Source: Desulfomonile tiedjei (GTDB lineage: Bacteria > Desulfobacterota > Desulfomonilia > Desulfomonilales > Desulfomonilaceae). From it: a stretch of 64,000 nucleotides of DNA. Below the pieces are notes generated by a model, which did not search any database, was not told where the DNA came from, and saw only the letters and a program-made list of their open reading frames with translations. Both the position numbers and the translations under genes were made by a program. Position 1 is the stretch's first letter; every line of letters begins with the position of its first letter. The stretch spans positions 124,001-188,000 of the forward strand of contig JACRDG010000032.1 of NCBI GenBank assembly GCA_016218715.1, read 5' to 3'. Positions 29,039-34,919 of this stretch are shown here, piece after piece.

Positions 29039-30046
29039 ATGGAAATCACCGTCACCGCGCCCAACAGGGTCGATCTGGCCGGAGGCACGACCGACATCTA
29101 TCCGCTCTACCTGTTCATGGACGGCGGGTGCACGGTGAACGCTGCCGTGACGATTCACAGCCGGGTTACGATCCGAACCCATGAGGGTTCACGCATCAGG
29201 ATCGTGTCGGAGGACCTCGGAGCGTCCGTCGCAGCGCCCGCGCCCGCGGGGTTGCCGGTTGACGGGCCCCTGGGATTGCTGGGAAGAGCGGTCCGGGCCG
29301 TCCCCCCGCCTGGCGGCATGGAGATGGTGGTGCAGAACAGTGCGCCGGCCGGATCGGGGCTCGGCGCTTCCAGCGCGCTCCTGGCGGCCGCTCTGGCGGG
29401 TCTCTTACACGTGCGCGGAGAGGAGCAGAGCCGTCGGGAGGTTGTGGATCTCGCCGCGAACATCGAGACTGCGGCTATTGCGGTTCCGGCAGGCAAGCAG
29501 GATCACATTGCCGCCGTGTACGGCGGCGTGTCACGCATCGACTTTGGGTATCGGGATTTTCACCGGCAAGATATAGGGTCGGAGCCGCAGGATCGTCTCG
29601 AACAGATGGTCGTCCTCTCTTATACCGGCGAGGGGCGATTTTCAGGGATGAACAATTGGGAGATCACCCGGGCCATTATCGATGGAAACGGGGAAGTCAA
29701 AGAAAAACTGATGGAAATCAGGGAAGTAGCACGGGAACTGGGATCCGCCTTGCTGGAGGGAGGGTGGAATCGCATCCCGGAGCTGGTCAACCGAGAGTGG
29801 CAGATACGGCGCACGCTGGCCCCGGGGGTGAGTACCCCGCGAATTGAGGGGATGATGTCCGCCGCATCCGCTGCCGGCGCGCTGGCGAGCAAGGTCTGTG
29901 GCGCCGGTGGTGGCGGCTGTATGATTACCTTCGCGGATCCTCCGGACAGGGCCGCGGTGGAAAAGGCAATAGAAGGGGCCGGAGGAACGGTCTTGCCTTA
30001 CCGCGTGGATCGGCAAGGGCTGGCGCTCCGTCAAACCGCCGAGTGA
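29039..30046 (+). CDS. GHMP-family small-molecule kinase
   Basis: 335 residues. The N-terminal strand APNRVDLAGGTTD is the galactokinase/heptose-kinase-like substrate region. The ATP loop PAGSGLGASSAL is near residues 100-112, and the C-terminal GHMP motif KVCGAGGGGCM is near 285-295. It phosphorylates a small sugar or alcohol; the COG2605-like group includes heptose-7-phosphate and L-fucose kinases, and the substrate here is not determined. Tight coupling to the LUD protein upstream is unusual and suggests that both act on the same metabolite route. Confidence 0.85.
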   Translation: MEITVTAPNRVDLAGGTTDIYPLYLFMDGGCTVNAAVTIHSRVTIRTHEGSRIRIVSEDLGASVAAPAPAGLPVDGPLGLLGRAVRAVPPPGGMEMVVQNSAPAGSGLGASSALLAAALAGLLHVRGEEQSRREVVDLAANIETAAIAVPAGKQDHIAAVYGGVSRIDFGYRDFHRQDIGSEPQDRLEQMVVLSYTGEGRFSGMNNWEITRAIIDGNGEVKEKLMEIREVARELGSALLEGGWNRIPELVNREWQIRRTLAPGVSTPRIEGMMSAASAAGALASKVCGAGGGGCMITFADPPDRAAVEKAIEGAGGTVLPYRVDRQGLALRQTAE

Positions 30047-30737: not shown

Positions 30738-32873
30738 TCAAAGGTACCCGAGGTCCATCAGTCTCTTCTTGACGATTTCCTCTTCTTCCGCGGTGAATCC
30801 GGAAGCGGGTTCCGGATGCGCGCTCGCCGGTGCTGCAGCGGGCAAGTGAGGGCTCGCTCCCTCTGCTGTTGACCCGCAGAGGTGACCATCCAGGTCGATA
30901 ATCTTCCCGGTCAGATCCTCCGGGGGGCGTAAGCCGAATTCATGGAGTATCGTGGGGGTAATGTCCAGACAGGACGCGTCGCTCACCTGCGTACCTTTCC
31001 GCCTCCCTTGCCTGAGGTCGGAGAGCCGAGCCGCGATGAATATCCCGTCGGGATCGTGGTTCGCGTCATCCGGCCCGGTATCGTTCCCGGCCCGGTAGAG
31101 GTCTCCGTGGCCTATCGTGCCAATGGAACGGCGCGAGAGATTGTCGAAATAGAGGATCAGGTCAGGAGCGACGTGGTTGCAGGTGCGATAGATCTCCTCC
31201 GGCTTCAGGACCTTGTTGGCCATCGGGACGCCGCGTTCGTCAGGTATTTGCCTCAGCTTCTCAGCCAGGTCATTGCGAAAGGACTCGTACTCGTAAGGTT
31301 CGATGGTCCCCTGAGGCTCTCTCCCTTTCACGTTAAGAAAAATCCTGGCGTAATAACCGCCTTCACTCCATACCCGGGTCCGAGACCAGTCGACCATGTC
31401 GGACTTGAGCGGAGTCTCCTCGTCCGGCTGCGCGTGTAAGACGAGCAGGCCGTTGCGAATCAACCATTCGTTGATGCAAATGCCGCCGGCCATGGTCTTC
31501 GCGCCGTGGTCGGAGACCACCAGGACGGTCGTGTCGTCATCGAGGAGGGCCAGGAGCGATCCGATGCATGAATCCAGATATCGGTACGCGTCGCGGATTG
31601 CATGCTCGAACCGGTTGCCCGGCTCGTACAGGCGATGATCGGGATTCGCGTACCTCCAGAACGCATGGTGAAGCCGGTCGGGGGCTATCTCCACCATCAT
31701 GAAGAAATCCCAGGGCCGGTGAATTACCAGATCCCGAGCCAGCCGGAAACGCCGTTCGATCATCGTGTAAATATCTTGCAGGAGCTGCCCCCGCTCGCGG
31801 TTTCGGAATCCCGTCACGTCCGGAATGTAATCGCCCTCGGCCAGGAGAGGGATCTCGTCACGCACGCTTTCCGGATAAACCCACCCTGGGGAACCGTCCG
31901 GGAAGGGAAACCCCGCGACCGTAATTCCCTGGTGAGGCCGTGGCGGGTACGTCTGCGGCAGAGCCACGACGATCGAGGACCCGCCCGCCTCTTCCACGTA
32001 GTCCCAGCAGCGGGGAGCCTGGACGTGCGAAGCGTTGAACGTAGTCATTTCCCGATAATCGTAACCGAGTCGATTGCGAAAACCGTACATACCCAGCTCG
32101 CCGGGATCTCTCCCCGTAGTAATGGAGGCCCAGGCAGGGACAGTGATCGGCGGATCGGTCGATCGCAAGGGACCCCACAGCCCGTGATCCATCAAGGCCC
32201 TGAGGTTGACAAGATCTTCGCCTGCCGAACCGAAAACCAGGGAGGGAGGGACGCCGTCGAGTCCAATGACGGCAACCCTGCGTTTGGCTCCCGAGGCCAC
32301 GGCATGCCGCAGCGCGCCAGCGTCGCTGATAGACGCGAAACCCGTGTCGAGGAACGAAACAATCATGTCGAGCGATTCCTCAATGGTTTGCACTCCCGTC
32401 GGCACCTCCAGTTCCGACGAACCGGGCCGCTCGAACGGCGCGGAAATACCCGTGAACGCGGGGACTTCCCCGCTCCGGGCCCGGGCGTACAGTCCTTTGA
32501 AATCGCGCTGTTCACAGACCTCGATGGGGCAGTCGAGGAAGATCTCGACAAATCGGTCCGACTCGAAAAGCCCCCGAACCGCGCGTCGCAGGCTATCGAG
32601 TGGCGTAATAAACGCGGCAACCACCGTGATCCCCGTGTCGGTGAGGATCTTTGCCACTTCCCCCGCACGGCGGATGTTCTCGGCTCGCTCCAGGGGAGAG
32701 AATCCCAGGTCGCGGTTCAATCCCGCGCGCAGCGAATCACCGTCCAGCAGAACAACCGATTTGCCTCTGGCCTCGAGAACCTCTTTCAGTTTCGAACTGA
32801 GCGTGGACTTTCCGGAACCGGAGAGGCCGGTAAACCAGATCGTCCCTGCGTGTTGCTGTTTCATCCGTTTCAC
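30738..32873 (-). CDS. adenylylsulfate kinase fused to an alkaline-phosphatase-superfamily phosphohydrolase
   Basis: 711 residues, two complete domains. Residues 1-185 are a CysC-type APS kinase: Walker A GLSGSGKST at about 16-24, LLDGDSLRAGLNRDLGFS, the lid region GLYARARSGEVPAFTGI. It should make PAPS from APS and ATP. Residues 205-650 are a COG3379-like nucleotide pyrophosphatase/phosphodiesterase of the AlkP superfamily, with VIGLDGVPPS (first metal Asp), the nucleophile threonine in PPITVPAWAS, APDRLHHAFW, and VVSDHGAKTM. The start could be the GTG at 32873 or the ATG at 32864. No sulfotransferase or ATP sulfurylase is adjacent. Confidence 0.88.
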   Translation of the reverse strand: MKRMKQQHAGTIWFTGLSGSGKSTLSSKLKEVLEARGKSVVLLDGDSLRAGLNRDLGFSPLERAENIRRAGEVAKILTDTGITVVAAFITPLDSLRRAVRGLFESDRFVEIFLDCPIEVCEQRDFKGLYARARSGEVPAFTGISAPFERPGSSELEVPTGVQTIEESLDMIVSFLDTGFASISDAGALRHAVASGAKRRVAVIGLDGVPPSLVFGSAGEDLVNLRALMDHGLWGPLRSTDPPITVPAWASITTGRDPGELGMYGFRNRLGYDYREMTTFNASHVQAPRCWDYVEEAGGSSIVVALPQTYPPRPHQGITVAGFPFPDGSPGWVYPESVRDEIPLLAEGDYIPDVTGFRNRERGQLLQDIYTMIERRFRLARDLVIHRPWDFFMMVEIAPDRLHHAFWRYANPDHRLYEPGNRFEHAIRDAYRYLDSCIGSLLALLDDDTTVLVVSDHGAKTMAGGICINEWLIRNGLLVLHAQPDEETPLKSDMVDWSRTRVWSEGGYYARIFLNVKGREPQGTIEPYEYESFRNDLAEKLRQIPDERGVPMANKVLKPEEIYRTCNHVAPDLILYFDNLSRRSIGTIGHGDLYRAGNDTGPDDANHDPDGIFIAARLSDLRQGRRKGTQVSDASCLDITPTILHEFGLRPPEDLTGKIIDLDGHLCGSTAEGASPHLPAAAPASAHPEPASGFTAEEEEIVKKRLMDLGYL

Positions 32874-33013: not shown

Positions 33014-33091
33014 CGGGGTGTAGCGCAGCCTGGTTAGCGCGCGTGCCTTGGGAGCACGAGGCCGCCGGTTCAAATCCGGCCACCCCGACCA
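33014..33091 (+). tRNA. tRNA-Pro (anticodon TGG)
   Basis: Complete cloverleaf. The acceptor CGGGGTG pairs with CACCCCG, the D arm is GCGC...GCGC, the anticodon stem CGTGC/GCACG closes the loop CTTGGGA with anticodon TGG, and the T arm is GCCGG-TTCAAAT-CCGGC. ACCA is encoded at 33088-33091, so the CCA end is genomic. Confidence 0.97.
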
Positions 33092-33365: not shown

Positions 33366-34919
33366 ATGAGCCGATGGAAGATCGAACCGGCCGCTAGATC
33401 GGTACGGTTGAGCCTTTTGGTCTGTTTTCTGTCGCTTTGGTTTGCGTCTGGCAGCGGCATTGCTGCGGAGTCGCTCAAGCTCACGATTTTGCACATGAAC
33501 GACCCGCACGCCCATTACGTGCCGTACAAGGACAAAGAGGCAACGGGCCTCATCGGAGGGTTTGCCAAGGCCAGGACCGTGATGTCAGGGATCGAAGCGG
33601 CCAACCGAGCGGACGGCCGAGAGACACTGAAATTCCTTTCCGGCGACCTGCTCATGGGGACCCCCTATTCAACCATGTTCAAAGGCCGGCTCGGCTTGGA
33701 GCTGCTGGAAAAGATGCAGTTCACGGCCATGACGGTGGGCAATCATGAGTTTGACTACGGCGCGGACCACCTGCTCCGGGTTCTCAAGCCTCTGGCCAAG
33801 GTTCCGCTTCTTTCCGCAAACATCCGGTCAGCCTCGGGTGAAGAGTTGTTCCAGAGGTCGGTGGAAATGCGATTTCCCGGTTCCAGCACCAGAGTGCTCA
33901 TTTTCGGGCTCACCACCGCCGAGACTCCCCAGACCACGCATCCCGGGAACGTCAACGGAATCGCGTTCCAGGACTCGATTCAAACCGCGCGGGAACTCCT
34001 CACGGATGCCAAACAAGAGGACCTGGTAATTGCGGTTACCCATCTCGGTCTGTACGAGGACAAGAGACTCGCCGCGGCGTGCCCGCTCATCGACGTCATC
34101 GTCGGCGGGCATTCCCATACCGAATTGAAGGACCCGATCGAAGTCGGTGGGACGATCGTTTGCCAGGCCGGAGCATACGCCAAGTTCGTCGGCCGTCTGG
34201 ACCTGGACGTCACCGACGGCAAGGTAGCCGGGTACCAGGGCCGCCTGATCCGTCTGGACCCTGACGTTCCGGAAGACTCGGAGATCGCCTCCCTGATCGC
34301 GGACCATACCGCGTTGCTCGACAATGAATTCAAACAGGTCATCGGCAGCACAGAAGTGTTCCTCGACGGGAACTGCAGAGTGGCCAACCCGGGAACCAAT
34401 ACGAACCTCGGTCTGCTCATTACTTCCACAATGGCGGCAGGCCAGCAAGCGGACGTCGCTGTCCTCAACGGTGGGTCTGTACGAGCGAGCATTCCCGCAG
34501 GGAACATCACCCCAGCCGATGTGTATACCGCGCTCCCGTTCGGGGGTTCGATGGTGAAACTCGGACTGACCGGTGAGGATCTCCTGAGTGCATTGGAACG
34601 GGGCGCCAACCTGCCGAACGGCAGCGGTGGCAGATTGCAGACGTACGGGGTTTCCTACACTGCGGAGAATGGCAGGGTTACCGCGGACTATGTCAGAGGC
34701 GAACCGTTCGACCCGAAGAAGACCTATGTGGTGATCACCAACGACTTCCTCGCGGCAGGCGGAGACGGTTACTCGATGTTTCGGGACAAAGCGCGGGTCC
34801 TCGACCAGTCTGCCGTGCCGGTCAGCGATCTCATGATCGGCTACCTCAAGGACGTCAAGGTGATCACCAAAGAATTGCTCGAGAACATCCAAAAAAAGAC
34901 CACCCCGGTTAAGAACTGA
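33366..34919 (+). CDS. exported 5'-nucleotidase / 2',3'-cyclic phosphodiesterase (UshA-like)
   Basis: 517 residues. A signal peptide covers about residues 1-34 (ending GIAA). The N-terminal metallophosphatase domain shows ILHMNDPHAH, SGDLLMGTPYS, MTVGNHEFDYG, and VIVGGHSHTEL, which hold the two metal sites. The C-terminal substrate-binding domain carries NGGSVRASIPAGNIT and the nucleotide-stacking ITNDFLAAGGDGY. It should dephosphorylate nucleotides in the periplasm. The gene is preceded by a long hairpin and followed directly by a palindromic element that may terminate it. Confidence 0.93.
   Translation: MSRWKIEPAARSVRLSLLVCFLSLWFASGSGIAAESLKLTILHMNDPHAHYVPYKDKEATGLIGGFAKARTVMSGIEAANRADGRETLKFLSGDLLMGTPYSTMFKGRLGLELLEKMQFTAMTVGNHEFDYGADHLLRVLKPLAKVPLLSANIRSASGEELFQRSVEMRFPGSSTRVLIFGLTTAETPQTTHPGNVNGIAFQDSIQTARELLTDAKQEDLVIAVTHLGLYEDKRLAAACPLIDVIVGGHSHTELKDPIEVGGTIVCQAGAYAKFVGRLDLDVTDGKVAGYQGRLIRLDPDVPEDSEIASLIADHTALLDNEFKQVIGSTEVFLDGNCRVANPGTNTNLGLLITSTMAAGQQADVAVLNGGSVRASIPAGNITPADVYTALPFGGSMVKLGLTGEDLLSALERGANLPNGSGGRLQTYGVSYTAENGRVTADYVRGEPFDPKKTYVVITNDFLAAGGDGYSMFRDKARVLDQSAVPVSDLMIGYLKDVKVITKELLENIQKKTTPVKN

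Follow-up and report, generated by a model that had tools for sequence, protein, structure and literature searches.

Enzymes of sulfate activation that are fused to one another are already known. The PAPS synthases PAPSS1/2 and CysNC are fusions of ATP sulfurylase (Sat) and an APS kinase of the CysC family, and in stramenopiles and haptophytes Sat is fused to an inorganic pyrophosphatase, which is proposed there to pull the reaction (PMC2275785). A cluster of separate genes is also in print: in Pyrococcus yayanosii and Thermococcus onnurineus it comprises copG, ATP sulfurylase, a DHH pApase, a type I phosphodiesterase and APS kinase (PMC8268124). The protein analysed here resembles the PAPS synthases in that an APS kinase of the same CysC family is fused to a likely enzyme of sulfate activation, but here an AlkP-superfamily hydrolase takes the place of ATP sulfurylase. 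It shares with the stramenopile and haptophyte proteins the attachment of a hydrolase to sulfate activation; that system, however, is eukaryotic and places an inorganic pyrophosphatase on Sat, whereas here we find an NPP-fold enzyme (PMC2275785). As in the archaeal cluster, a gene described as type I phosphodiesterase/nucleotide pyrophosphatase occurs with ATP sulfurylase and APS kinase, and at two Planctomycetota-titled loci a small CopG-type gene precedes it (L077, RHH_1 by Pfam; L061, by likeness only); by contrast, the archaeal genes are separate, the phosphodiesterase function given there is the authors' speculation, and the likeness is one of gene description (PMC8268124). Our literature search returned this unfused archaeal cluster and no paper on a CysC-phosphodiesterase fusion; within the literature searched, the fusions of CysC and of Sat to the phosphodiesterase, their spread in bacteria and the C-terminal tail treated below were not found in print.

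The window, a 64,000-nucleotide stretch of Desulfomonile tiedjei DNA, encodes this protein in one frame (Table 1); the plus strand of 30738-32873 is not open. A preliminary description had recognized a complete CysC and a complete phosphodiesterase (PDE) in one 711-residue protein, and both halves are indeed full length against their profiles: APS_kinase PF01583 matches residues 11-157 (profile positions 4-151 of 152, E 8.7e-55; 185.4 bits against a cut-off of 21.1), and Phosphodiest PF01663, the type I phosphodiesterase/nucleotide pyrophosphatase profile, matches residues 200-600 (positions 1-340 of 342, E 9.4e-44; 150.8 bits against 23). The NCBIfam model apsK TIGR00455 (203.5 bits, cut-off 138.7) names the N-terminal half adenylyl-sulfate kinase, the nearest solved sequences are plant and animal APS kinases, and the expected motifs are present: Walker A GLSGSGKST (16-24), DGDSLR (44-49), ERAENIRR and the lid KGLYARARSGEVPAFTGI. 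Family membership and these conserved motifs make formation of PAPS from APS by the CysC half likely, as had been proposed. Some CysC-like kinases act on substrates other than APS.

Table 1. Features of the fused gene and its surroundings, in window coordinates.
Feature	Coordinates	Strand	Remarks
CysC::PDE fusion ORF	30738..32873	minus	711 aa, GTG start, stop codon 30738-30740
APS kinase (CysC) domain	32340..32873	minus	residues 1-178; Pfam, NCBIfam, nearest solved sequences, motifs
Linker	32289..32339	minus	residues 179-195; low model confidence, pLDDT <50 at 185-194
PDE domain (AlkP-superfamily, NPP-fold hydrolase)	30894..32288	minus	residues 196-660; Pfam, fold, invariant residues
C-terminal tail EEEEIVKKRLMDLGYL	30741..30788	minus	residues 696-711; predicted helix 695-707
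GHMP-type kinase	29039-30046		convergent with fused gene; best NCBIfam relatives fucokinase, heptose-7-phosphate kinase
tRNA-Pro	33014-33091		just past fused-gene start
UshA-like 5'-nucleotidase	33366-34919		divergent from fused gene; Pfam, NCBIfam

The whole protein was modelled by AlphaFold2 with a mean pLDDT of 90.8 and a pTM of 0.73, the PDE half with a mean pLDDT of 88.9. The PDE model is closest to Xac NPP 2gsn (Z 30.1, rmsd 3.1, 344 residues aligned), with human ENPPs ranking just behind; across 2gsn and ENPP4/5/1 the fold matches have Z 28-30 over ~340-360 residues. Its active-site set, D206, T244, D399, H403, D455, H456 and H606, is one that we match by motif to the metal and nucleophile residues of NPPs, T244 being the putative nucleophile by analogy, and this two-metal site with its threonine is invariant in 36/36 rows of a cross-phylum PDE alignment containing ~80 invariant columns. 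Despite the common fold and the D/T/D/H/D/H/H set, the PDE differs from the NPP family in being 14-18% identical, linked to PAPS synthesis and, because it is fused behind a kinase, apparently cytosolic. The match to Sulfatase PF00884 (21.8 bits) falls under the cut-off of 25, and a Pfam scan of the fused protein gave no CysQ, DHH or PHP assignment.

The fusion is real and conserved. Among 60 genomes around that of the window, both domains lie in a single open frame in 14 of the 17 others of the same family, at 51-63% identity, which brings the one-frame fusion to 15 of 18 genomes with the window's own; we call this family Desulfomonilaceae-like, after the Desulfomonile and Desulfomonilaceae MAGs among its named relatives. 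In two of the exceptions (G002, G009) a contig end interrupts the locus, and in the third (G010) PDE and CysC are encoded by two different genes. The recurrence of the same frame refutes an artefact of assembly or sequencing that joined two genes, which had been named as a way in which the fusion might prove false. Loss of an active site in homologues, the other such concern, was not seen among the catalytic residues inspected: all seven PDE residues are retained in 15/15 aligned fused proteins, as are the kinase motifs (Walker A, DGD, RAENIRR and the KGLY...FTG lid) when single substitutions are allowed, those found being N-to-C after GL in L006 and KNLY in L010.

How the PDE occurs elsewhere was followed in 84,980 species, each represented by a single genome, where the whole-protein query yielded 80 loci that were kept. 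Outside the family a stand-alone gene of ~460 aa usually encodes the PDE, often beside cysC or sat, at loci titled Planctomycetes, Chloroflexi, Verrucomicrobia, Poribacteria, Acidobacteria, Hydrogenedentota and Nitrospiraceae; three more such separate genes lie in what we take, from their names, to be Firmicutes isolates. Because the whole-protein query contains CysC and is thus biased, a PDE-only query was run on 301 genomes from the phylum to which G077 belongs, G077 being the genome of the Chloroflexi-titled L066. It found the PDE in 26 of these genomes, at 29 loci, with cysC within ~1.5 kb at 16, sat at 15 and either at 18. Gene orders include sat-PDE-cysC, PDE-cysC-sat and PDE-sat-cysC, and an unfused sat-PDE-cysC run is found in the window's own phylum (L173/G054). 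Pfam further identified two Sat::PDE fusions (L073, 863 aa; L138, 860 aa) and a PDE::CysC fusion of 728 aa (L145). Of 113 PDE loci, among them duplicates, fused family loci and loci truncated at a contig end, 62 lie within 3 kb of cysC and/or sat and 51 lack both at that distance, gene calls in the neighbouring stretches being our own ORF picking. On a quick PDE tree of 112 rows, built without bootstraps, linkage to sat or cysC is scattered and requires at least 24 changes, and so is not one inherited block. The linkage at 18/29 loci, taken with the Sat::PDE and PDE::CysC fusions, suggests that the PDE very probably belongs to sulfate activation.

Gene content gives an indication of where the PAPS goes. 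Within the Desulfomonilaceae-like family, ATP sulfurylase is present in 17/18 genomes and a PF13469 sulfotransferase in 16/18, while PAPS reductase is found in 0/18, the window's included, by a search that recovers the reductase from 11 of 14 known control genomes. Since PAPS reductase is missing throughout and sulfotransferases are nearly general, PAPS is probably spent on sulfation in this family; cysteine assimilation is an unlikely role there, and the earlier proposal of a PAPS-dependent modification fits this content. Among 34 other PDE genomes hand-picked from the 80 kept loci, PF13469 occurs in 23, PF00685 in 22 and PAPS reductase in 20, and at least one of PF13469, PF00685 and PF03567 in 28 (PF03567 was searched in 15 of the 34, among them all those without the other two). 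Outside the family, PAPS likely serves sulfation or assimilation. One family genome additionally encodes a sat/cysC fusion, after which comes a bona fide CysQ (L119, G001:C31).

The surroundings of the fused gene agree with the initial observation that genes for ATP sulfurylase, sulfotransferase and cysteine assimilation are missing nearby: as far as tested, the genome's sole Sat and sole sulfotransferase are on contig C4 and the window is on C108. The suggestion that sulfotransferases might adjoin homologues held for one relative, L118, in which a sulfotransferase lies ~4 kb from the fused gene and stands in a row beside it with a glycosyltransferase, a split transketolase and an epimerase; elsewhere it largely failed, since among 90 stretches searched with a small profile only L102 and a marginal match in L035 joined L118 in having one within ~10 kb of the PDE. 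A close relative of the window's GHMP kinase occurs within ~5 kb of the fused gene at 7 of the 11 family loci among the 80 kept. We do not count this kinase as part of the system, as the GHMP kinases after the PDE in L034 and L062 are only 27-29% identical to it. Neighbour clustering found no counterpart of the UshA-like 5'-nucleotidase in three or more loci. Elsewhere in the same genome, a PDE paralogue (L114:5038-7661, G000:C67; 36% identical) directly adjoins a PHP-domain gene.

The preliminary description had tied the fusion to remodelling of a glycan or lipid head group, for example; this does not sit well with a PDE linked and fused to the PAPS-synthesis enzymes themselves across many phyla, which makes a by-product or nucleotide of sulfate activation the more likely substrate. 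The explanation we favour, with distinctly less than even confidence in the whole, is that the fused protein would be two-thirds of a three-enzyme set of ATP sulfurylase, NPP-fold AlkP hydrolase and APS kinase. The N-terminal half would convert APS to PAPS, and the C-terminal half would clear a phosphorylated by-product, by which the very unfavourable activation of sulfate would be driven forward. That by-product would most likely be pyrophosphate (PPi) released by ATP sulfurylase, and sulfotransferases, not cysteine synthesis, would consume the PAPS in the Desulfomonilaceae-like family. PPi as the substrate, a reading drawn only from the linkage to Sat, is possible though short of probable. 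It is consistent with the Sat::PDE fusions and with six loci titled Hydrogenedentota or Nitrospiraceae (L049, L051, L055, L071, L088, L089) where sat adjoins the PDE with no intact cysC close. At three of these a CysC-like remnant lies beside the pair (L051:3721-4113, L088:6708-7097, L089:11307-11783), short and lacking Walker A with its tail kept; the remnant identity is our own reading, Pfam having given no match for the two of the three that were searched. The persistence of sat-PDE without an intact kinase points to the Sat step, and it speaks against the main rival, in which the PDE would be a PAP nucleotidase that converts PAP, an inhibitory by-product of sulfotransferases, to AMP and phosphate and stands in for CysQ. 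Some PDE genomes moreover have a separate PAP phosphatase: six of the 34 have a CysQ over the cut-off, these being anammox-group genomes, and in L050 a PHP-domain gene (Pfam) directly follows PDE-cysC, just as one adjoins the paralogue L114 in the window's genome. The PHP family includes a PAP phosphatase. The P. yayanosii cluster has its own DHH pApase, and its authors speculate that the type I phosphodiesterase degrades PPi (PMC8268124); the Sat-pyrophosphatase fusion of stramenopiles and haptophytes would be a precedent (PMC2275785).

Several observations count against PPi. Within the family it is CysC, not Sat, that carries the PDE, and the sole Sat of the window's genome is on another contig and probably serves the sulfate respiration of Desulfomonile, so that a PPi sink on CysC is not an obvious design. 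NPP-type sites usually act on diesters and nucleotides, not on PPi, and ~80 invariant columns are a lot for so small a substrate. CysQ over the cut-off is missing from 28/34 PDE genomes, which would suit a PAP nucleotidase, and the two Inositol_P proteins found in the window's genome reach only 78.5 and 105.9 bits, far short of the 228.8 that the CysQ cut-off demands; the CysC fusion and the sulfotransferases likewise place the PDE at the PAP(S) end of the pathway, and the closest solved folds are nucleotide-binding NPPs. Absence of CysQ is nonetheless a poor proof of this role, being common: only two of 14 named control genomes pass the cut-off and 12 have none over it. We regard PAP as an unlikely substrate, if a serious contender. 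The 51 of 113 loci with neither sat nor cysC within 3 kb, which also count against PPi, would be accommodated if the PDE worked in glycan or nucleotide-sugar chemistry, as a hydrolase or mutase acting on sugar phosphates or nucleotide sugars, and were linked to PAPS synthesis through a common product, sulfated polysaccharide. Glycosyltransferases (family F2, 16 loci) and genes for GDP-mannose dehydratase, DegT, Wzz, a flippase and sulfatases recur near the PDE, but F2 and similar families are broad and loosely clustered, and the fusions are to CysC, in both orders, and to Sat, with none to a glycan gene among the frames inspected; we consider this rather unlikely.

The NPP fold, the full two-metal site and fusion to the makers of APS and PAPS would also allow the PDE to hydrolyse APS or PAPS as a safety valve on the pool. 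Such an activity would be futile by itself and would oppose its own fusion partner, and the Pfam scan of the fused protein found no regulatory domain, which leaves this reading improbable. The boldest reading, and a very improbable one, is that the PDE is a PAPS-dependent sulfuryl transferase whose threonine would accept the sulfuryl group of the PAPS supplied by the fused kinase and hand it on to a glycan or lipid intermediate, with the LGYL tail as a docking signal that would bring together kinase, transferase and related enzymes, a scheme that we rate just as low. Classical sulfotransferases are rarely near the cassette, and no match to PF13469, PF00685, PF03567 or PF01507 occurs in G074, G077 and G091, all three of which have a linked cassette; these genomes, however, may be incomplete or use other families, and recognized sulfotransferases occur in 28/34 PDE genomes and PF13469 in 16/18 of the family. 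To our knowledge, no AlkP-fold PAPS sulfotransferase has been described. Should the PDE be a third enzyme of sulfate activation, many genes annotated as 'alkaline phosphatase family' or 'type I phosphodiesterase' would gain a pathway, and an AlkP-superfamily enzyme, not a pyrophosphatase or CysQ, would drive the use of PAPS; sulfated glycans would then be a product open to testing in groups such as sulfate reducers and anammox bacteria, and a direct in vitro assay is made easy by the variety of fusion architectures.

A C-terminal pattern, EEExxVxxRLxxLGYL, recurs among fused proteins, APS kinases linked to a PDE and some neighbouring proteins. Scored as [RKQ]LxxLGY[LVIM] at the C-terminus, with frames running off a contig end (7 loci) left out, the tail is present on 13/14 complete fused frames and on 22/37 separate CysC proteins encoded no more than 3 kb from a PDE, as compared to 1/13 unlinked CysC proteins, the one genome concerned having a PDE elsewhere. 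It is carried by 14 of 112 distinct complete PDE frames, 13 of which are fusions. Further bearers of the tail are the CysC-like remnants, PDE paralogues, sulfatase-like proteins encoded two genes away from the PDE and small proteins encoded before it, one being a ribbon-helix-helix protein. In the form EE..[IV]..RL..LGY[LIV] it was found in the window and in L044, L046, L050, L051, L057, L061, L066, L077, L145, L174-L177 and L179, common to unrelated families around the PDE that include sulfatase-like and PDE-like AlkP proteins. When the 22-aa tail was compared to solved proteins, the sole match was to an APS kinase, at its normal C-terminal helix (E 0.45), and a literature search with tail strings found no paper. 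Judged by its sequence, the tail resembles a duplicate of the C-terminal helix that CysC normally has, and we take it as a putative docking or assembly signal. At L174-L177, from genomes in the same phylum as G077, gene order is constant, a sulfatase-like gene with the tail, an lgt-like gene (a reading from its start) and the PDE, with or without sat/cysC.
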